Origin: Ahrensia sp.
Lineage (GTDB): Bacteria > Pseudomonadota > Alphaproteobacteria > Rhizobiales > Rhizobiaceae
Assembly (NCBI GenBank): GCA_028817895.1
Contig: JAPPOQ010000033.1
Location: forward strand, 1-64,000
DNA: 64,000 nucleotides
Direction of reading: 5' to 3'
The notes under the pieces are model-generated. The model worked only from the letters and a program-made list of their open reading frames with translations, ran no database searches and had not been told where the DNA came from. Positions 39,632 to 47,641 of the stretch are shown in pieces. Every line of letters begins with the position of its first letter. Position 1 is the first letter of the stretch. The position numbers and the translations under genes were made by a program.

Positions 39632-40546
39632 ATGTCGCTTGCCATGAACCGCGACGTATTCATCACCTGCGCCGTTACCGGATCAGGGTCGACACAGGAC
39701 AAAAGCCCACATGTCCCGCGCTCGCCGAAGCAGATTGCCGAAAGCGCCATAGATGCAGCCAGAGCTGGCGCTGCTGTTGTTCACTGCCATGTGCGTGATC
39801 CTGATACGGGAGTGCCCAGCAGAAGACTCGATTTGTACCGCGAAGTGACCGATCGCATCCGCGACGCAGATATCGACGTGGTGCTCAATCTGACCGCCGG
39901 AATGGGCGGAGACATGGTGTTTGGACCAACAGATGCGCCGCTGCCTCTGAACGACGCGTCAACTGATATGATCGGCGCTGCCGAACGCGTTGAGCATGTG
40001 CGCCAATGCCTGCCGGAAATCTGCACGCTGGATTGCGGCACAATGAACTTCGCCGAGGCTGACTATGTGATGACGAACACGCCGGGCATGCTGCGCGCCA
40101 TGGGCCGCATGATGACCGAATTTGGCGTTAAGCCGGAAATCGAAGCCTTCGATACCGGCCATCTGTGGTTTGCCAAGGAACTTGTGAAAGAGGGCGTTCT
40201 GGAGGACGATGCCCTGGTCCAATTGTGCATGGGCGTGCCATGGGGGGCTCCGGATGACCTCAACACCTTCATGGCGATGGTCAACAATGTGCCCAACAAT
40301 TGGACATGGAGCGCTTTTTCGCTGGGGCGCAATCAAATGCCATTTGTCGCCGCAGCGGTGCTGGCAGGTGGCAATGTGCGTGTCGGGCTGGAAGACAATC
40401 TGATGCTCGACAAAGGCGTTCTGGCCACCAATGCGCAATTGGTGGAGCGGGCCGTCACGATCATTGAAAATCTGGGCGCCAAGATCATCGGGCCAGAGGC
40501 CGCGCGCGAGCGTTTGGGCCTGACGAAGCGTGCGCCGCCCTCATGA
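39632..40546 (+). CDS. cdhC: 3-dehydrocarnitine cleavage enzyme (BKACE family)
   Basis: Beta-keto acid cleavage enzyme of 304 aa. The Zn-binding VVHCHVRDP gives His51 and His53, and GLEDN near the C-terminus the metal Glu; LNLTAGMGGDM and the LDCGTMNF segment are family blocks. BKACEs move the acyl part of a beta-keto acid to acetyl-CoA. Presence of an L-carnitine-dehydrogenase gene 2.9 kb downstream predicts the substrate 3-dehydrocarnitine, giving betainyl-CoA plus acetoacetate. The stop overlaps the SGNH gene start (ATGA). Other BKACE substrates such as 3-keto-5-aminohexanoate are less likely here. Confidence 0.85.
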   Translation: MSLAMNRDVFITCAVTGSGSTQDKSPHVPRSPKQIAESAIDAARAGAAVVHCHVRDPDTGVPSRRLDLYREVTDRIRDADIDVVLNLTAGMGGDMVFGPTDAPLPLNDASTDMIGAAERVEHVRQCLPEICTLDCGTMNFAEADYVMTNTPGMLRAMGRMMTEFGVKPEIEAFDTGHLWFAKELVKEGVLEDDALVQLCMGVPWGAPDDLNTFMAMVNNVPNNWTWSAFSLGRNQMPFVAAAVLAGGNVRVGLEDNLMLDKGVLATNAQLVERAVTIIENLGAKIIGPEAARERLGLTKRAPPS

Positions 40547-41196
40547 CAACAGCTATCATGACCAAAACGATCGTCTGTTTCGGCGACAGCAATACGCATG
40601 GCACGCCGCCAATGCGTTTGCTCAGCGATGATGCGCGTTTCGGACCAGATATTCGCTGGCCTCAGCGTATGGCGCGTCAATTGGGGCCGGAATGGCATCT
40701 GGTGGAAGAGGGCCATCCAGGACGCAACACCGTCTTCGATGACCCAATTGAGGGTGAGCACAGGAACGGCTTTCGTGTGCTTCCCGCCATCATTGAGAGT
40801 CACAAATGGATCGATGTGCTCGTCATCATGCTGGGCACAAACGATTGCAAACAACGGTTCGGCCTCACCACGCTGGACATCGCGCTTGGCATGGGCCGGC
40901 TGGTCGATCTGGTGAAGGCTTCGCCTTATGTGCACGATGTGCTGGTTGTCTGCCCGCCACCTGTGCTGGAACGGGGTGCGCTGGCCGAGATTTTTCAGGG
41001 CGCTGAGAAACGCTGCGAAGGTTTGGCGGACAAGATGAGACGTGTGGCCCAATTCCGGCAGGCGCATTTCTTCAATGCGGGAGACGTGATCGCCTGCGAT
41101 CCTCTCGATGGTGTTCATTTCAGCGAAGAAGCGCATGCTGATCTCGGTACGGCAATTGCTGCAAAGGTGTCCGAAATTGGTGAGAAGGGCGGATGA
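40543..41196 (+). CDS. SGNH/GDSL hydrolase in the carnitine cluster
   Basis: A 217-aa cytoplasmic SGNH esterase/thioesterase without a signal peptide. Block I is FGDSN (Ser16), the glycine block is EGHPGRNT, block III GTND (Asn100), and block V DGVH with Asp189 and His192. Closest form is the arylesterase/acyltransferase type (MsAcT-like). It is translationally coupled to cdhC (start in its stop) and to the HD gene (stop overlaps that start), which ties it to this pathway. Possible jobs: acylcarnitine esterase, or hydrolysis of betainyl-CoA or carnitinyl-CoA. ATG 40558 is a possible internal start. Confidence 0.85.
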   Translation: MTTAIMTKTIVCFGDSNTHGTPPMRLLSDDARFGPDIRWPQRMARQLGPEWHLVEEGHPGRNTVFDDPIEGEHRNGFRVLPAIIESHKWIDVLVIMLGTNDCKQRFGLTTLDIALGMGRLVDLVKASPYVHDVLVVCPPPVLERGALAEIFQGAEKRCEGLADKMRRVAQFRQAHFFNAGDVIACDPLDGVHFSEEAHADLGTAIAAKVSEIGEKGG

Positions 41197-41825
41197 TGGA
41201 ACACGTCAAATTCAAAGCCATGAAGGATGGCGATCGCGAAGACTATGCCTTTTTGGCCGAGCATGAGATCAAGTATGCCGCGAAGACGGGTCAGCGTTTG
41301 TTGCGAGCGATGGAAGAGTTAGATGAAAGCCTGTCGGGCTATCAGGTCACGCGTCTCGGTCATTCCCTACAATCTGCAACGCGGGCCTGGCGCGACGGGG
41401 CGGACATCGATTGGGTGGTCTCAGCCCTGCTGCATGACATCGGCGACATTTACGCGCCTTACAATCATGACGAATATGCCGCCGCGATCCTGCGCCCCTT
41501 TGTGCGCGAACAGTGCACCTGGACCGTGGAGAAGCATGGGGACTTCCAAAAGGTCTATTACATGCACCACTATGATGGCGATCCAAACGCGCGGGACCAA
41601 TATCGCGATCACGCCTTTTTCGGGGATTGCGCGCAGTTTTGCGAGCGCTGGGATCAAGCGAGTTTCGACCCGGACTATGAAAATTTGCCGCTCAGCTTCT
41701 TCGCGCCAATGGTCGACGAAGTTTTTGCACGAAAAGCCTATGACCCGGCGGTTATGCGGGCAGGGGAGCGGGAGCCTTTGATTTATGAGGGTGTGGCGGC
41801 TGTTCGTGCTGCGAAAACCGCCTAA
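41193..41825 (+). CDS. HD-domain protein, putative mixed-valent diiron oxygenase
   Basis: A 210-aa protein of the predicted HD phosphohydrolase group (COG4341 type). Aligning by eye with PhnZ, all six iron ligands of the mixed-valent diiron oxygenases are in place: His57 (LGHSLQ), His81-Asp82 (LLHDIGD), His92 (YNHDEYAA), His115 (EKHGDFQK) and Asp154 (ERWDQAS); PhnZ has LEHSLQ, LLHDLGH, QHEKVGADYLR, EGHVAAK and RAWDEKG at these points. PhnZ Glu27 is replaced by Tyr50. TmpB, a relative, acts on a trimethylammonium phosphonate. Here the gene is fused by overlaps into a carnitine operon, so an oxygenase for a quaternary amine is a fair hypothesis; phosphohydrolase activity cannot be excluded. Confidence 0.8.
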   Translation: MMEHVKFKAMKDGDREDYAFLAEHEIKYAAKTGQRLLRAMEELDESLSGYQVTRLGHSLQSATRAWRDGADIDWVVSALLHDIGDIYAPYNHDEYAAAILRPFVREQCTWTVEKHGDFQKVYYMHHYDGDPNARDQYRDHAFFGDCAQFCERWDQASFDPDYENLPLSFFAPMVDEVFARKAYDPAVMRAGEREPLIYEGVAAVRAAKTA

Positions 41826-41850: not shown

Positions 41851-42072
41851 CTACGCGTCCGCCTTCTCTTTCTCACCGAGGGGAAGTTCGGATTTTTCCT
41901 TCAACCCAAGTCTTTCCAAAAACTCGTCGCCATCGACCGAGCTTGTCAGCCAGACTTTGCCTCTCTCACCGGCGAGAAGACTGTAGGCGTAGGCCTCAAG
42001 CGCGATTTGGTCACGCTGCTCTTCGGTCATAGCGGCATAGTCATCGAATGAAACTTCACGAACGATCTTCAT
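41851..42072 (-). CDS. Small acidic protein, possible antitoxin
   Basis: A 73-aa protein of unknown family with strongly charged helices (SFDDYAAMTEEQRDQIALEAYAY, residues 8-30) and a C-terminal Lys/Glu-rich tail. ATG 42072 has GGGAG 7-8 nt upstream. It starts 17 bp after the stop of the 106-aa gene on the same strand; both are antisense to the flanking carnitine genes. Size, charge and order (larger partner first, as in HigBA) are like a toxin-antitoxin pair, but no known motif was recognised. Confidence 0.55.
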   Translation of the reverse strand: MKIVREVSFDDYAAMTEEQRDQIALEAYAYSLLAGERGKVWLTSSVDGDEFLERLGLKEKSELPLGEKEKADA

Positions 42073-42089
42073 TGTAGAACTCCCAACAT

Positions 42090-42410
42090 TCAAAGCCCAA
42101 GCGCGCTGCGCAGCATGGCAATCGAACTCAACAATCGCTTCAAACGGGAAAGCGAGTTGGCTGCTCCCCTCGGTTTGATCCGAACCACCGTAATGGCAAA
42201 TGCGGCATCATTTCTGCCAAGGTCAAAAACGAAATCGAACTCACCGAAGCTTCGAATGAGAAGTGGTCCGACCACCTCGTCATCGTCAGAGTATGGCAGG
42301 CGCAGGAAGCTGTTGCAAACGCTCCGCATATTCGCGTCACTGATGCCCAGAAGAGCGGCATCGTATTCTGCCGCTGAAGTGAAGCGGATCTCGATTGCTA
42401 TTTTATCCAT
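42090..42410 (-). CDS. Unrecognised 106-aa protein, possible toxin partner
   Basis: About 106 aa, predicted alpha/beta. It contains YDAALLGISDANMRSVCNSF and FGEFDFVFDLGRNDAAFAITVVRIKP; the latter strand-rich part and the basic C-terminus (SRLKRLLSS) are loosely RelE/HigB-like, but I cannot assign it to a family. ATG 42410 is chosen as the frame continues upstream only into low-complexity sequence antisense to lcdH. No good ribosome site is seen. It is divergent from lcdH by 88 bp. Confidence 0.5.
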   Translation of the reverse strand: MDKIAIEIRFTSAAEYDAALLGISDANMRSVCNSFLRLPYSDDDEVVGPLLIRSFGEFDFVFDLGRNDAAFAITVVRIKPRGAANSLSRLKRLLSSIAMLRSALGL

Positions 42411-42498: not shown

Positions 42499-43506
42499 AT
42501 GACCATTTCAACTACGGCAGCCATTGGCGGTGGCGTTATCGGAGGGGCTTGGGCGGCAAGGTTTGTGCTGAACGGCCTGGATTGCCGCATCTTTGATCCG
42601 CATCCCGATGCCGAACGCATTGTCGGCGAGGTAATGGCCAACGCCGAACGAGCTTTTGCCATGCTCACGGATGCATCGAAGCCGAAGCCGGGCAGGCTGA
42701 CCTTCGTGTCCTCCGTTGAAGAAGCCGTTGAAGGCACTGATTTGATTCAGGAATCCGTCCCAGAGCGGCTGGAATTGAAGCAAAAGGTGCATATGCAGAT
42801 CGACGCTGCGGCACCCGAGGATGCGTTGATCGGATCATCGACGTCAGGTCTGCTGCCGACCGACATTCAATGCAAAATGATGAACCCAGAACGCATGTTT
42901 GTGGCGCATCCTTACAATCCGGTATATCTGCTGCCGCTGGTCGAAATTGTTGGTGGCGCACGCACGAGCGCCGAGACGATTGGGCGTGCCCATGCAGCCT
43001 ATGCGCGAATTGGCATGAAACCCGTCACCATCCGCAAGGAGATCGATGCCTTTGTCGGCGATCGGCTGCTTGAAGCAGTCTGGCGTGAGGCGATCTGGCT
43101 GATCAAGGATGATGTCTGCACGGTCGAAGAGCTTGACGATATCATGACGCATTCCTTTGGCCTGCGCTGGGCGCAGATGGGCCTCTTCCAGACCTATCGA
43201 ATCGCTGGTGGTGAGGCCGGGATGCGCCATTTCATCCATCAGTTTGGCCCAACCATGAGCCTGCCTTGGACCAAATTGATGGATGTGCCTGAACTGAATG
43301 ATGCGTTGATCGAAAAAATTGCCGATCAGAGCGATGAGCAGGCGGGCGACCTTGGCATCCGCGATCTGGAGCGCATCCGAGATGACAATCTGGTCGGGTT
43401 TCTGCACGTTTTGCGAGATGCGCGAAACGGACGGGGATGGAGTGCCGGCAAAGCGCTCAAGGGTTACGAGGACCGCCTAAAAAGACAGGCTGCGAACGAT
43501 GCTTGA
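42499..43506 (+). CDS. lcdH: L-carnitine dehydrogenase (3-hydroxyacyl-CoA dehydrogenase family)
   Basis: NAD-dependent oxidation of L-carnitine to 3-dehydrocarnitine. About 335 aa: Rossmann motif GGGVIGG (10-16), FDPHPDAE, QESVPERLELK, the substrate region SSTSGLLPTDIQ, and RMFVAHPYNPVYLLPLVEIVGG, a hallmark of carnitine dehydrogenases. Rhizobial LcdH proteins as I recall them continue for about 150 residues with a betainyl-CoA thioesterase domain; that extension is absent here, so the protein is the dehydrogenase alone. ATG 42499 is the start; a ribosome site GGAG lies close upstream. Confidence 0.9.
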   Translation: MTISTTAAIGGGVIGGAWAARFVLNGLDCRIFDPHPDAERIVGEVMANAERAFAMLTDASKPKPGRLTFVSSVEEAVEGTDLIQESVPERLELKQKVHMQIDAAAPEDALIGSSTSGLLPTDIQCKMMNPERMFVAHPYNPVYLLPLVEIVGGARTSAETIGRAHAAYARIGMKPVTIRKEIDAFVGDRLLEAVWREAIWLIKDDVCTVEELDDIMTHSFGLRWAQMGLFQTYRIAGGEAGMRHFIHQFGPTMSLPWTKLMDVPELNDALIEKIADQSDEQAGDLGIRDLERIRDDNLVGFLHVLRDARNGRGWSAGKALKGYEDRLKRQAANDA

Positions 43507-43518
43507 GGAGGCGCAGGC

Positions 43519-44694
43519 ATGAATTTCTCCCTTTCCGAAGAACAGTCCCTCATCGTTGAGACCACGCGGTCTTTTGTGGAGAATGAACTTTATCCGCATG
43601 AAGCCGAGATCGAGCGCTCCGGTGTGCTGGAGATGGACCTCATTCGCGAACTGCAGAAAAAGGCGATGGAGGCAGGGCTCTATGCCGCCAACATCCCGGA
43701 GGAGTTTGGCGGGGCAGGTCTCGATACGCTGACATGGCTGCTCTACGAAAAGGAGCTTGGCCGGGCGAACTATGCCTTGCACTGGACCTGCGTTGCGAGG
43801 CCATCCAACATCTTGTGTGCGGGCACGCCGGAGCAGCGCGAGAAATATCTTGAACCGTGCATGCGTGGCGAGACATGGGATTGTCTGGCAATGACGGAAC
43901 CGGGCGCCGGATCCGATCTGCGCGGCATGAAAGCCACCGCCAAGCCGGACGGTGCAGGGTCAAATTCGGATTGGATATTGAACGGCACCAAGCACTTTAT
44001 CAGCCACGCCGATATTGCCGGCTTCGCAATCTGTTTCATGAAGACGGGGGAAGTTGAAACACCGCGGGGCCCGAAAGCGGAGATCACAGCGTTCTTCGTC
44101 GACAAGGGCACGAAAGGGTTCAGCGTTCGCGATGGTTACAACAACGTCTCCCATCGCGGCTACACAAATGCGGTGCTGGAGTTTGATGATTGTCGCGTGC
44201 CTGCGGAGAACATTCTGGGCGAAGTGGGCAAAGGGTTTGATGTCGCCAATGACTGGTTGGGGGCGACGCGCCTGCAGGTCGCTGCGACCTGCCTTGGTCG
44301 CGCGGACCGGGCTTTCAACCTGGCCGTCAGCTACGCCGCCGAACGTAAGCAATTTGGCCAGCAGATTGGCAAGTTCCAGGGCATTTCCTTCAAGCTTGCT
44401 GACATGGCGATGGAACTGAAAGCGGCTGAATTGCTGACTTGGGAGGCCGGCTCGAAGTTCGATGACGGCCGCTGCACCGACAGCGATATGGCCATGGCGA
44501 AGCTAAAGGCTTCCGAGGTGCTTGCCATGGTCGCGGACGAAGCCATTCAAATCCATGGAGGCATGGGGCTGATGGATGAATTGCCGCTTGAACGGATCTG
44601 GCGTGATGCTCGCATCGAGCGCATCTGGGAGGGGACAAGCGAGATTCAGCGGCATATCATCTCCCGAGCCTTGCTGCGTCCGCTAGGCGCGTGA
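43519..44694 (+). CDS. Acyl-CoA dehydrogenase (probable gamma-butyrobetainyl-CoA)
   Basis: FAD flavoprotein of 391 aa that desaturates an acyl-CoA. AMTEPGAGSDLRGMKATA, the flavin-binding YSERKQFG-like AERKQFGQQIGKFQ, IQIHGGMGLMDELPLERIWRDARI and WEGTSEIQRHIISR are the classical blocks. With the acyl-CoA ligase and CaiD-like hydratase after it, the best substrate is gamma-butyrobetainyl-CoA, giving crotonobetainyl-CoA. The gene follows lcdH by 12 bp. Confidence 0.88.
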   Translation: MNFSLSEEQSLIVETTRSFVENELYPHEAEIERSGVLEMDLIRELQKKAMEAGLYAANIPEEFGGAGLDTLTWLLYEKELGRANYALHWTCVARPSNILCAGTPEQREKYLEPCMRGETWDCLAMTEPGAGSDLRGMKATAKPDGAGSNSDWILNGTKHFISHADIAGFAICFMKTGEVETPRGPKAEITAFFVDKGTKGFSVRDGYNNVSHRGYTNAVLEFDDCRVPAENILGEVGKGFDVANDWLGATRLQVAATCLGRADRAFNLAVSYAAERKQFGQQIGKFQGISFKLADMAMELKAAELLTWEAGSKFDDGRCTDSDMAMAKLKASEVLAMVADEAIQIHGGMGLMDELPLERIWRDARIERIWEGTSEIQRHIISRALLRPLGA

Positions 44695-44726
44695 TCAATC
44701 TATGATTGTCGAGTATCTCAGTCCCC

Positions 44727-46847
44727 ATGCCTCGTGACCTGAATCGTCTGCTCTCGCCGAAATCGATTGCCGTCATCGGTGGTCTGGAGGCCGAACGGGT
44801 GGTTGAGCAGTGCCTGAAATTCGGCTTTGAAGGGGCGATCTGGCCCGTCAATCCCAAGCGTGAAGCCATGCATGGGATCGACTGCTTTGCCTCGGTGGCG
44901 CAGCTACCCGCTGTTCCCGATGCAGCCTATGTCGCGGTGAACAGGGAACGTTCAATCGAGGTGGTTGCGGCTCTGTCACAAATGGGATGCGGCGGTGCCG
45001 TCTGCTATGCAGCGGGCTTCGCTGAAGCGGAGAGCGAAGTGCAGGGTGCGATAAACCTTCAACACCGACTGCTCGACGCCTCAGGCGACATGCCCATTGT
45101 CGGCCCCAATTGCTACGGCGTTATCAATGCACTCACGGGCGCTGCGCTCTGGCCGGATCAGCATGGGACGGTACGTACACAAAGCGGCGTTGCGATCCTG
45201 ACCCAGTCGTCCAATCTGGCCATTTCGATCACCATGCAGCAGCGCGGGCTGCCCATCGCTTTTGTCGGAACGATGGGCAACCAGGCGCAGACAGGCATGT
45301 CGGAGCTTGCCCTGGGTCTCTTGCAGGAAGAGCGAATAACCGCCATCGGGCTGCATATTGAAGGTATTGACGATGTGATCGCCTTCGAGAAGGTCGCCCG
45401 CCTGGCACGCAAGCTTGAAAAGCCGATCATCGTCTTGAAGGCCGGTCGATCAGAGCAGGCGAGGGCCGCCACGCTCACACACACCGCTTCTCTTGCAGGA
45501 GGGGATGCTGCGCATGATGCCCTCTTTCGACATCTCGCGGTTGCCAGGGTGGAGAGCCTCGATGCCTTTCTCGAAACACTGAAGCTTGCTTGCTGCGGTG
45601 GTGCGCTGTCGAGCGGGTCGCTAATTTCTTTGTCCTGTTCGGGTGGTGAAGCTGCCCTGATCGCGGATGCGGCGGAGGGCATGCGGGCCAGATTTCTTCC
45701 CTTTGACCACAATACCAACGCTGATCTGAAAGCGCAGCTCGGGCCGATTGTGACCATCGCCAATCCGCTCGACTACAACACATTCATCTGGGGTGATTGG
45801 CCGGCGGTGGAGACCGTTTACGCAACCGCGATGCAGGCCGATTGCTCTTTGGCGATGCTGGTCCTCGATTTTCCACGCGGCGACACGTGCGATACCGAAG
45901 ATTGGGGCCACGCATTGGCCGCATGGGTGGCGGCGACCAGGGCAACGGGTCGCCGCACGGCAGTCGTGGCCACCATGGCAGAAAACATGCCGGAGCAGGT
46001 TGCGCGGTCCCTGATTGCGCAAGGCATCGCGCCCCTTTGCGGATTGCAAATGGCGCTTGCAGCAATCAACGCCTGCGTCGAGATCGGTGAGAACTGGCAG
46101 AAGCCGGAGAATGAGCCACTTCTTTCGAATGCGATTGTGCAGACAGATTCTCAAATCCTTGATGAGTTCGAGGCGAAACAGGCGCTTCGAAAATTCGGCC
46201 TTGTCACACCAAAGGGGAGCGTGGTGCGGCTGGTCGAGCCCGATGACAGTTTCGAGGTGATGGACGTCGTGCCCGGTGGGTTTGACCCGCATCAGCCGAC
46301 GTTGGAATGGCTCGACGGCGACACGGGATTGCAACCGCCCTTTGCCCTGAAAGCGTTGGGCATTGCGCACAAAACTGACGTCGGCGCCGTGCGGCTCAAT
46401 CTGCAAAGTCAGGCGGACGTGTTGCAGACAATGCGTGACATGGCGCATCTGTCTGGCCGATTCTTGCTGGAGGAGATGTCTGCCAAGCCTGATGCGGAAT
46501 TGATTGTTGGCGTCTCGCGGGACCCGGTTGTTGGCCTTGTGATGACGGTTGGCGCGGGCGGAGTTCTCGCCGAACTGCTGGCGGATATGGTGACCTTGCT
46601 GCTACCCACCGGCGGGGCGCAAATCCGTGAGGCACTGTCCCGTCTGAAGATCAACACTATGCTGGAAGGCTGGCGCGGTGCGCACGCCACCGATATCGAT
46701 GCATTGATCGCCAATATTGTGTGCATTGCCGATTACGCCACGGCGAACGCCGACACATTGGAGGAACTGGACGTGAACCCGCTCTTCGCGACGCAATTTG
46801 GCAGCGTGGCGGTGGACGCCCTGATCGTGAAAAGGAAACCGATATGA
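44727..46847 (+). CDS. ADP-forming acyl-CoA ligase (fused alpha-beta)
   Basis: About 706 aa. The N-terminal CoA-binding Rossmann domain begins with LLSPKSIAVIGG; the succinyl-CoA-synthetase-like domain contains LTHTASLAGGD with the phospho-histidine at 252; the C-terminal ATP-grasp domain starts near FEAKQALRKFGLVTPKG. This is the acetate-CoA ligase (ADP-forming)/pimeloyl-CoA-type architecture. In this cluster it probably activates gamma-butyrobetaine or carnitine with CoA, replacing the AMP-forming CaiC. ATG 44727 fits domain starts; a TTG at 44706 is in frame, and neither has a clear ribosome site. Confidence 0.87.
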   Translation: MPRDLNRLLSPKSIAVIGGLEAERVVEQCLKFGFEGAIWPVNPKREAMHGIDCFASVAQLPAVPDAAYVAVNRERSIEVVAALSQMGCGGAVCYAAGFAEAESEVQGAINLQHRLLDASGDMPIVGPNCYGVINALTGAALWPDQHGTVRTQSGVAILTQSSNLAISITMQQRGLPIAFVGTMGNQAQTGMSELALGLLQEERITAIGLHIEGIDDVIAFEKVARLARKLEKPIIVLKAGRSEQARAATLTHTASLAGGDAAHDALFRHLAVARVESLDAFLETLKLACCGGALSSGSLISLSCSGGEAALIADAAEGMRARFLPFDHNTNADLKAQLGPIVTIANPLDYNTFIWGDWPAVETVYATAMQADCSLAMLVLDFPRGDTCDTEDWGHALAAWVAATRATGRRTAVVATMAENMPEQVARSLIAQGIAPLCGLQMALAAINACVEIGENWQKPENEPLLSNAIVQTDSQILDEFEAKQALRKFGLVTPKGSVVRLVEPDDSFEVMDVVPGGFDPHQPTLEWLDGDTGLQPPFALKALGIAHKTDVGAVRLNLQSQADVLQTMRDMAHLSGRFLLEEMSAKPDAELIVGVSRDPVVGLVMTVGAGGVLAELLADMVTLLLPTGGAQIREALSRLKINTMLEGWRGAHATDIDALIANIVCIADYATANADTLEELDVNPLFATQFGSVAVDALIVKRKPI

Positions 46848-47641
46848 CCTCTCCCATCAAGACCCGAACAGAGGGCGGCATCCTGGAAGTCACCATTGAT
46901 CGCCCGAAAGCCAATGCGATTGATTTGGCGACCAGCCGCGCAATGGGTGAGGTGTTCCAGAACTTTCGCGATGACCCGGATTTGCGCGTTGCGATCCTCA
47001 CAGCGGCTGGAGGCAAGTTTTTTTGCCCGGGCTGGGACCTCAAGGCCGCATCAAATGCGGATGGCAGCGAAGGCGATGCGGTTGACGGGGACTATGGCGT
47101 TGGCGGCTTTGGCGGCTTGCAGGAAATGCGGGATATGAACAAGCCGGTGATCTGCGCCGTCAACGGCATTTGCTGTGGTGGCGGGCTGGAAATCGCTCTC
47201 TCATGCGACATCATTCTGGCAGCTGAAAGCGCAAGTTTCGCTTTGCCGGAAATCCGCTCTGGCACAGTTGCTGATGCAGCATCCATCAAACTGCCCAAAC
47301 GTATTCCCTATCACATCGCAATGGAGATGCTGCTCACAGGACGTTGGCTCGATGTCGAGGAGGCTCATCGCTGGGGGTTCGTCAATCACATTTATGCTGA
47401 CGACAAGCTGATGGATGAAGCCCGGGAAATGGCGCGACTTCTGGAAAGCGGTCCGCCGCTTGTCTATGCGGCGATCAAGGAAGTCGTGCGTGATGCGGAG
47501 GATTCCAAGTTTCAGGATGCCCTAAATCGCATCACTACCCGACAGTTGCGCACGGTGGACACGCTCTACGGCTCGGAAGACATGATGGAAGGTTTCAACG
47601 CTTTCGCAGAAAAACGCGATCCCGTCTGGAAGGGGCGTTGA
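46844..47641 (+). CDS. caiD: Carnitinyl-CoA dehydratase (crotonase family)
   Basis: A 265-aa crotonase. The CaiD-like stretch KFFCPGWDLKAA and GVGGFGGLQEM, the oxyanion-hole ICCGGGLEIALSCDIILA and LPEIRSGTVADAASIKLPKRIP with its catalytic Glu support hydration of crotonobetainyl-CoA to L-carnitinyl-CoA. The ATG overlaps the ligase stop and has AAAGGAAA upstream. It is the last gene of the plus-strand carnitine cluster, convergent with the TVP38 gene 4 bp away. Confidence 0.85.
   Translation: MTSPIKTRTEGGILEVTIDRPKANAIDLATSRAMGEVFQNFRDDPDLRVAILTAAGGKFFCPGWDLKAASNADGSEGDAVDGDYGVGGFGGLQEMRDMNKPVICAVNGICCGGGLEIALSCDIILAAESASFALPEIRSGTVADAASIKLPKRIPYHIAMEMLLTGRWLDVEEAHRWGFVNHIYADDKLMDEAREMARLLESGPPLVYAAIKEVVRDAEDSKFQDALNRITTRQLRTVDTLYGSEDMMEGFNAFAEKRDPVWKGR

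Follow-up and report, generated by a model that had tools for sequence, protein, structure and literature searches.

HD-domain proteins of carnitine operons as candidate diiron oxygenases of quaternary amines

The HD-domain oxygenases named in PMC8177086 are MIOX, PhnZ and TmpB, to which PMC10574752 adds a PhnZ of Gimesia and the fungal fusion PhoF, both acting on phosphonates. The ligand pattern of HD oxygenases is H...HD...H...H...D (PMC8177086), which in PhnZ is formed by His34, His58, Asp59, His80, His104 and Asp161 (PMC7916636); the substrate binds at Fe1 and O2 at Fe2, a substrate hydrogen is abstracted and the neighbouring C–C or C–P bond is cut without an external reductant (PMC8177086). 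PhnZ, the (R)-2-amino-1-hydroxyethylphosphonate oxygenase, works with PhnY, and TmpB, the (R)-1-hydroxy-2-(trimethylammonio)ethylphosphonate oxygenase, works with TmpA. Carnitine catabolism by L-carnitine 3-dehydrogenase (LcdH) and a beta-keto acid cleavage enzyme (BKACE), known from Pseudomonas and Sinorhizobium, is described in PMC12482172. The subject of this work is an HD-domain protein encoded within a carnitine operon in a 64,000-nucleotide stretch of DNA from Ahrensia sp. (contig JAPPOQ010000033.1, positions 1 to 64,000, forward strand), the whole of which is called the window below:

41193–41825, plus strand: HD-domain protein, candidate mixed-valent diiron oxygenase; open reading frame of 210 amino acids, with an alternative ATG at 41196

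Conserved in carnitine operons, the protein is distinct from both PhnZ and TmpB; the likeliest reading is a diiron oxygenase of the HD type whose substrate pocket has been altered. We lean, by a modest degree, towards the view that a PhnZ/TmpB-type HD oxygenase with a mixed-valent Fe(II)/Fe(III) centre was recruited to a carnitine/gamma-butyrobetaine operon, where it cleaves a trimethylammonium compound beside its carbinol.

Fold, metal ligands and substrate pocket

The original prediction, made from the DNA letters alone, had taken the protein for a candidate diiron oxygenase and named structure prediction as a way of checking this. The AlphaFold2 model of the window protein, built with 33 homologues, reached a mean predicted local distance difference test score (pLDDT) of 91.1 and a predicted template modelling score (pTM) of 0.88. 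When it was compared with the PDB by Foldseek, 10 chains were found at E ≤ 0.001 and all 10 were PhnZ or TmpB, while the next entries were tRNA-processing enzymes (from E 0.11), a predicted HD hydrolase (0.36) and MIOX (0.66). By this measure the fold is nearer to the oxygenases than to the HD hydrolases. PhnZ likewise came first and TmpB next when the PDB was searched with phmmer and with a profile. The scores against the NCBIfam models were far lower than their cut-offs (Phn-HD, 30.8 bits against 214.6; hydroxymethylphosphonate PhnZ1, 28.3 against 300; TmpB, 27.2 against 300); Pfam HD was matched with 22.7 bits, slightly above the cut-off of 22, and Pfam MIOX (PF05153) with 21.4, below the gathering cut-off of 25.

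The ligands that had been claimed for the protein (His57, His81/Asp82, His92, His115 and Asp154) were all present and were borne out by alignment to PhnZ and TmpB-like proteins and by their conservation:

41361–41363, plus strand: codon of His57, equivalent to PhnZ His34 (direct PhnZ alignment)
41433–41438, plus strand: codons of His81-Asp82, equivalent to PhnZ His58-Asp59 (direct PhnZ alignment)
41466–41468, plus strand: codon of His92, equivalent to PhnZ His80 (order of residues and TmpB-like alignment)
41535–41537, plus strand: codon of His115, equivalent to PhnZ His104 (order of residues and TmpB-like alignment)
41652–41654, plus strand: codon of Asp154, equivalent to PhnZ Asp161 (a second, weak matched stretch on the 'AWDE' aspartate of PhnZ)

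The window protein thus carries the whole H...HD...H...H...D set of the diiron oxygenase class represented by PhnZ, TmpB and MIOX. All six ligands were invariant in the 159 aligned sequences, the window included (111 of 111 above 50% identity and 48 of 48 below), a degree of conservation well above what chance would give; the alignment retained near-duplicates, the locus L094 was left out for its in-frame stops and L171 gave no protein (L numbers designate the loci of relatives). In 11 TmpB-like proteins five of the ligands were likewise present throughout, and the last Asp was found in 10 and replaced by Glu in one.

PhnZ and TmpB share a YxxE substrate loop, which MIOX lacks (PMC8177086). 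In the window protein this loop is replaced as follows:

41331–41342, plus strand: Leu-Ser-Gly-Tyr (LSGY), codons 47 to 50, where PhnZ and TmpB have the YxxE substrate loop (from alignment)

It had been claimed that Tyr50 stands in place of PhnZ Glu27, which proved correct, but the change is wider than that claim, as Tyr24 of YxxE is also replaced. Position 50 is Tyr in 74 of the 75 relatives from carnitine loci and in all 10 PhyH-linked and all 10 TauD-linked ones, and Glu in the 11 TmpB-like proteins; position 47 is Leu in 72/75, 9/10 and 8/10 of the same three groups, and Tyr in all 11 TmpB-like proteins. In PhnZ, the hydroxyl of the substrate is contacted by His62, and Arg158 forms part of a proton chain (PMC7916636). 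The equivalent of His62 is Asp85 in every member of the three groups (75/75, 10/10 and 10/10; His in 10 of the 11 TmpB-like proteins), and that of Arg158 is Glu151 in 74/75, 10/10 and 10/10 (Arg in all 11), with Asp at this position in L150. PhnZ Lys108, which we take to be a substrate-pocket residue and, together with Arg158, a phosphonate contact, corresponds to Gln119 in 75/75, 10/10 and 10/10 relatives and is kept as Lys in the 11 TmpB-like proteins. The equivalent of PhnZ Glu162 is Gln in the window protein. Since the metal site is preserved and the residues around the substrate are changed as a block, the substrate of the HD protein is, judged from these residues, probably no phosphonate.

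The carnitine operon and the distribution of relatives

The gene neighbourhood was surveyed in the best 80 of 343 relatives from genome contigs (55 of the 80 titled Mesorhizobium), with gene calls and neighbour labels made by our own script, not a standard gene caller. BKACE lay directly upstream (−1) and LcdH directly downstream (+1) of the HD gene in 71 of the 80 loci, and in 57 of those 71 the HD and LcdH genes overlapped by 4 nucleotides (nt); among the remaining nine, one had LcdH at +2 and eight had neither gene. A divergent upstream gene formed one cluster of 70, the one scanned member of which was an AraC-type regulator with a DJ-1/PfpI domain. A CdhB-like thioesterase was fused in 11 and separate in 2 of the 77 loci with an LcdH-labelled neighbour, and was absent among the neighbours examined in the other 64; three of these 77 labels are weak, and the carnitine label of L149, which depends on a weak LcdH match (52 bits), is probably wrong.

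The connection was also apparent at the level of whole genomes. Of 385 genomes from the same class as the window, 40 contained the HD gene (E ≤ 1e-55), 45 contained LcdH (E ≤ 1e-90) and 25 contained both, against 4.7 expected (40 × 45/385; Fisher test 4e-17, which ignores shared ancestry); with looser LcdH cut-offs 27 and 29 of the 40 HD genomes were positive. Counted by family, both genes were present in one genome in 14 of the 24 HD-positive families. The HD neighbourhood was fetched in 22 of the 24 double-positive genomes besides the window's, and none of them had LcdH or BKACE near the HD gene, so that shared synteny by itself does not account for the link between HD and LcdH. A control gave 15 genomes in the LcdH list among the 51 with TmpB-like matches in a 240-genome sample (some of the 51 may lie outside the 385). 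The claim that the HD gene belongs to a carnitine catabolic operon is therefore upheld by both the conserved position and the genome co-occurrence with LcdH.

In the window itself, the order on the plus strand is BKACE, SGNH hydrolase, HD, LcdH, acyl-CoA dehydrogenase, acyl-CoA synthetase and crotonase, with BKACE at −2 and LcdH at +3 from the HD gene owing to insertions:

39632–40546, plus strand: BKACE, probably cleaving dehydrocarnitine, a substrate suggested by the operon (Pfam BKACE, 335.5 bits)
40543–41196, plus strand: SGNH/GDSL hydrolase between BKACE and HD (Pfam Lipase_GDSL_2), in this genome only (1 of 130 loci)
41851–42072 and 42090–42410, minus strand: two small open reading frames between HD and LcdH, with no Pfam match at E ≤ 0.001
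42499–43506, plus strand: LcdH without a fused thioesterase domain (query, 42502–43506)
43519–44694, plus strand: acyl-CoA dehydrogenase, possibly for a gamma-butyrobetainyl-CoA/crotonobetainyl-CoA redox step (family scans; no equivalog cut-off passed)
44706–46847, plus strand: acyl-CoA synthetase of the ADP-forming type (Pfam and NCBIfam scans)
46844–47641, plus strand: enoyl-CoA hydratase (crotonase), nearest model crotonobetainyl-CoA hydratase (307.5 bits, below the cut-off of 500; query, 46841–47641)

The window LcdH scored 580.4 bits against the NCBIfam carnitine 3-dehydrogenase model (model positions 4–334 of 495), slightly below the cut-off of 592. As had been noted from the letters, the HD gene is tied to its upstream neighbours by overlaps, of 4 nt between the HD start and the SGNH stop and of 4 nt between the SGNH start (40543) and the BKACE stop (40546). 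The SGNH hydrolase was nevertheless ruled out as a conserved partner, as the window was the only one of the 130 loci with it, and it is regarded as a local insertion; it might replace the betainyl-CoA thioesterase, the domain that the window LcdH lacks, or hydrolyse acylcarnitines. The minus-strand pair at 41851–42410 (73 and 106 amino acids) has a layout rather like that of a toxin–antitoxin pair, and it interrupts the operon in this genome. No gene for an iron/2-oxoglutarate (Fe/2OG) hydroxylase adjoins HD in the window operon, and no match was obtained when the window's genome was searched with the TauD of L112, a search that had no positive control and did not include PhyH.

Such hydroxylases recur beside relatives elsewhere. 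By their labels, the 163 HD loci fell into 75 carnitine loci, 10 with PhyH and 10 with TauD directly upstream, one with both carnitine genes and TauD, six with a class II aldolase and 61 others (near-duplicates were kept, and the labels omit a downstream PhyH in L232 and a divergent TauD in L204). A TauD protein resembling TmpA and GBBH, or a PhyH oxygenase, was thus encoded directly upstream of HD in 21 of the 163, compared with a background of one TauD/PhyH label among 1930 called genes not adjoining HD. A further 15 loci added one PhyH-HD pair, one TauD-HD pair and one carnitine locus arranged like L002; the other 12 had none of these. NCBIfam scoring covered nine of the adjacent TauD partners (all 12 but L206, L215 and L223), and all nine were closer to TmpA (318–423 bits, cut-off 400) than to GBBH (236–278 bits, cut-off 415), the partner in L150 being the only one over the TmpA cut-off (422.8 bits). 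The TmpA and GBBH families both hydroxylate trimethylammonium compounds. In a PDB search the TauD of L112 gave 188 bits to TmpA and 113 to GBBH. L150 contains a unit of TauD, HD and a choline-type binding protein divergent from BKACE and LcdH, and has a second TauD, not adjoining HD, that is closer to GBBH (305.7 bits) than to TmpA (289). In L112, TauD and HD are followed by genes for a choline-binding protein, choline dehydrogenase and aldehyde dehydrogenase.

A FastTree tree was built from 119 non-redundant sequences (93% identity) with the TmpB-like proteins as outgroup; several of its deep nodes are weakly supported. Twenty-three of the 26 carnitine-labelled HD proteins were nested in a clade of 62 (support 0.959), the others being L149, L150 and L222. 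The same clade held 10 TauD-linked, 10 PhyH-linked and 19 other proteins, so that 20 of its 39 non-carnitine members are encoded directly downstream of TauD or PhyH, and the nearest tree neighbours of the carnitine group were PhyH-HD proteins. TauD- and PhyH-linked HD proteins intermixed (L216 and L217, for instance, are sisters with a support of 0.99), which, as far as sequences can tell, suggests that the partners were swapped around a constant HD reaction.

Several relatives were seen in other surroundings. In L202 (2754–8292; the layout recurs in L201 and L203) the annotated order is an AlkZ-like gene, HD, urate oxidase, a deacetylase-like gene, allantoicase and ureidoglycolate lyase, the HD gene overlapping urate oxidase by 4 nt. 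In L209 (5354–9631; also L211) a relative lies between purF and glutathione genes (GCS2 and glutathione synthase), in genomes of 1.2–1.3 Mb. On a Phaeobacter plasmid (L111, 8004–10486) a 70% identical relative is followed by genes annotated as sterol desaturase family and 3-methyl-2-oxobutanoate hydroxymethyltransferase. A class II aldolase/adducin gene adjoins HD in six of the 28 non-redundant members of a distant branch (about 45% identity), namely in L115, L119, L140, L147, L148 and L156.

Proposed reaction and competing explanations

Iron, O2 chemistry, a trimethylammonium substrate and the order of two steps are all parts of the model that we infer. The substrate would have the form Me3N+-CH2-CH(OH)-R, and the bond next to the hydroxyl-bearing carbon would be cleaved oxidatively to release glycine betaine. 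In the tandem versions found elsewhere, the hydroxyl would first be put in place by a 2OG oxygenase (the TmpA/GBBH-like TauD or PhyH). Carnitine or a close relative of it already bears this group, so within the carnitine operon a hydroxylase partner would not be needed. The most specific and least certain candidate reaction is L-carnitine + O2 → glycine betaine + glycolate by C2–C3 cleavage, a further bacterial carnitine route that we hold to be doubtful; by stereochemical reasoning, (R)-carnitine would match the (R)-substrate of TmpB in space, with CH2COO− in place of the phosphonate. The substrate may be L-carnitine, the bold choice and one redundant with LcdH and BKACE, or D-carnitine, or decay products of dehydrocarnitine such as trimethylaminoacetone. 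The claim of a diiron oxygenase acting on a quaternary amine therefore stood in part, being favoured by the nearest fold, the recurrent Fe/2OG hydroxylase partners, the TmpA/GBBH-like TauD proteins and the pocket residues; the scores below the PhnZ and TmpB family cut-offs place the protein outside these two families.

A number of observations weigh against this model. LcdH and BKACE already turn L-carnitine into betainyl-CoA without O2, so that an L-carnitine oxygenase would be redundant in the same operon. Twenty of the 45 LcdH genomes have no HD protein at E ≤ 1e-55, lifestyle and ancestry may account for part of the co-occurrence of HD and LcdH, and the neighbour labels are uninformative for 56 of the 108 non-redundant HD proteins of the tree. 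Some relatives are found in unrelated surroundings (purine catabolism, purF/glutathione and class II aldolase), of which the first two disagree with a carnitine role. The TauD of L207 is nearly equidistant from TmpA and GBBH (170 and 162 bits in the PDB search), and TauD-HD has a PstS-like gene after it in L210 (160.5 bits, cut-off 206.6) and also in L215, which would fit a phosphonate. The second-shell residues PhnZ His62, Arg158 and Glu162 are replaced, and the chemistry may differ with them. Finally, H...HD...H...H...D is also found in dinuclear HD phosphohydrolases, and the motif alone is compatible with hydrolysis.

The shared motif, together with the Pfam HD score just over its cut-off, is what speaks for a metal-dependent phosphohydrolase or other hydrolase that would carry out no O2 chemistry and whose substrate would be a nucleotide or a compound related to CoA. 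Some relatives indeed lie beside purine genes, and the 64 of 77 LcdH-labelled loci with no CdhB-like thioesterase among the neighbours examined would leave room for a stand-in for the betainyl-CoA thioesterase. However, the nearest structures and sequences are the oxygenases PhnZ and TmpB and relatives occur in tandem with Fe/2OG oxygenases; the stand-in role in particular loses ground because the HD gene is also present in the 11 loci with a fused thioesterase. We give hydrolysis little credence. A second type of TmpB, carried in a carnitine operon and using hydroxylated trimethylammonium phosphonates, would agree with the TmpA scores of the nine TauD partners, that of L150 above all, and with the PstS-family gene of L210. 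This appears highly unlikely because the carnitine, TauD and PhyH groups (with one exception) have Asp, Gln and Glu where PhnZ has His62, Lys108 and Arg158; moreover, the protein reaches about one tenth of the cut-off of the TmpB model, the window operon has no TmpA, and the search of the genome with the L112 TauD, which lacked a positive control, came back empty.

The fold and the O2 chemistry would both be retained if the protein were a salvage oxygenase. It would then use either the D-enantiomer, which LcdH cannot use, or a by-product of 3-dehydrocarnitine, an unstable compound, namely trimethylaminoacetone or the beta-methylcholine formed by its reduction. Such a role would remove the redundancy with LcdH and BKACE and would suit the location of the HD gene, which in 71 of the 80 loci is exactly between the gene whose product makes 3-dehydrocarnitine (LcdH) and the one whose product consumes it (BKACE); trimethylaminoacetone was moreover detected by metabolomics in a Citrobacter that uses carnitine (PMC12482172). 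It leaves unexplained, however, why relatives are paired with TmpA-like and PhyH hydroxylases, and we consider salvage, with D-carnitine, trimethylaminoacetone or beta-methylcholine as the putative substrate, unlikely. The recruited PhnZ/TmpB-type oxygenase is thus the explanation to which we incline.

Comparison with known systems

Quaternary amines are common sources of carbon and nitrogen, and HD oxygenase chemistry would be extended to them by a large clade of proteobacterial proteins linked with carnitine genes and with exchangeable 2OG hydroxylases. Among the matches listed by a literature search, the scope of which excluded most subscription papers, there was no HD-domain oxygenase in carnitine metabolism. 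If the cleavage of L-carnitine were true, a PhnZ/TmpB-type enzyme would act on a C–C instead of a C–P bond, and the TauD-HD and PhyH-HD tandems would form a complete module leading from gamma-butyrobetaine through carnitine to glycine betaine. Estimates of phnZ abundance disagree widely, from <1% to about 20% of the expected genomes (PMC10574752); at a guess, proteins of this clade counted as phnZ could partly explain the disagreement. The protein is small and its candidate substrates are obvious, which makes the question directly testable.

With PhnZ the window protein shares the HD fold (Foldseek E 7e-6 to 2e-5, template modelling score up to 0.70), the same six ligands and the HxxQ motif, and its relatives, too, are found downstream of a 2OG oxygenase gene. 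It differs in having 21–24% identity over the structural match, the LSGY loop, a carnitine operon as its setting and no PhnY. The likeness to TmpB lies in the fold and the ligands, in the glycine betaine that is the product of the TmpB pathway and in the pairing of some relatives with TmpA-like TauD proteins, whereas a long branch parts the HD protein from the TmpB-like outgroup and the substrate residues differ. MIOX has the H...HD...H...H...D set, a weak Pfam match and the lack of YxxE in common with the protein, and one close relative is entered at NCBI as a member of the inositol oxygenase family, but the best Foldseek E-value was 0.66 and there were no inositol genes among the annotated HD neighbours, a small share of the neighbours overall. 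The LcdH–BKACE carnitine catabolism of Pseudomonas and Sinorhizobium has the same two core enzymes as the window, to which the latter adds the HD gene between them, an LcdH without the thioesterase domain and the genes of a CoA route, namely acyl-CoA synthetase, acyl-CoA dehydrogenase and hydratase.

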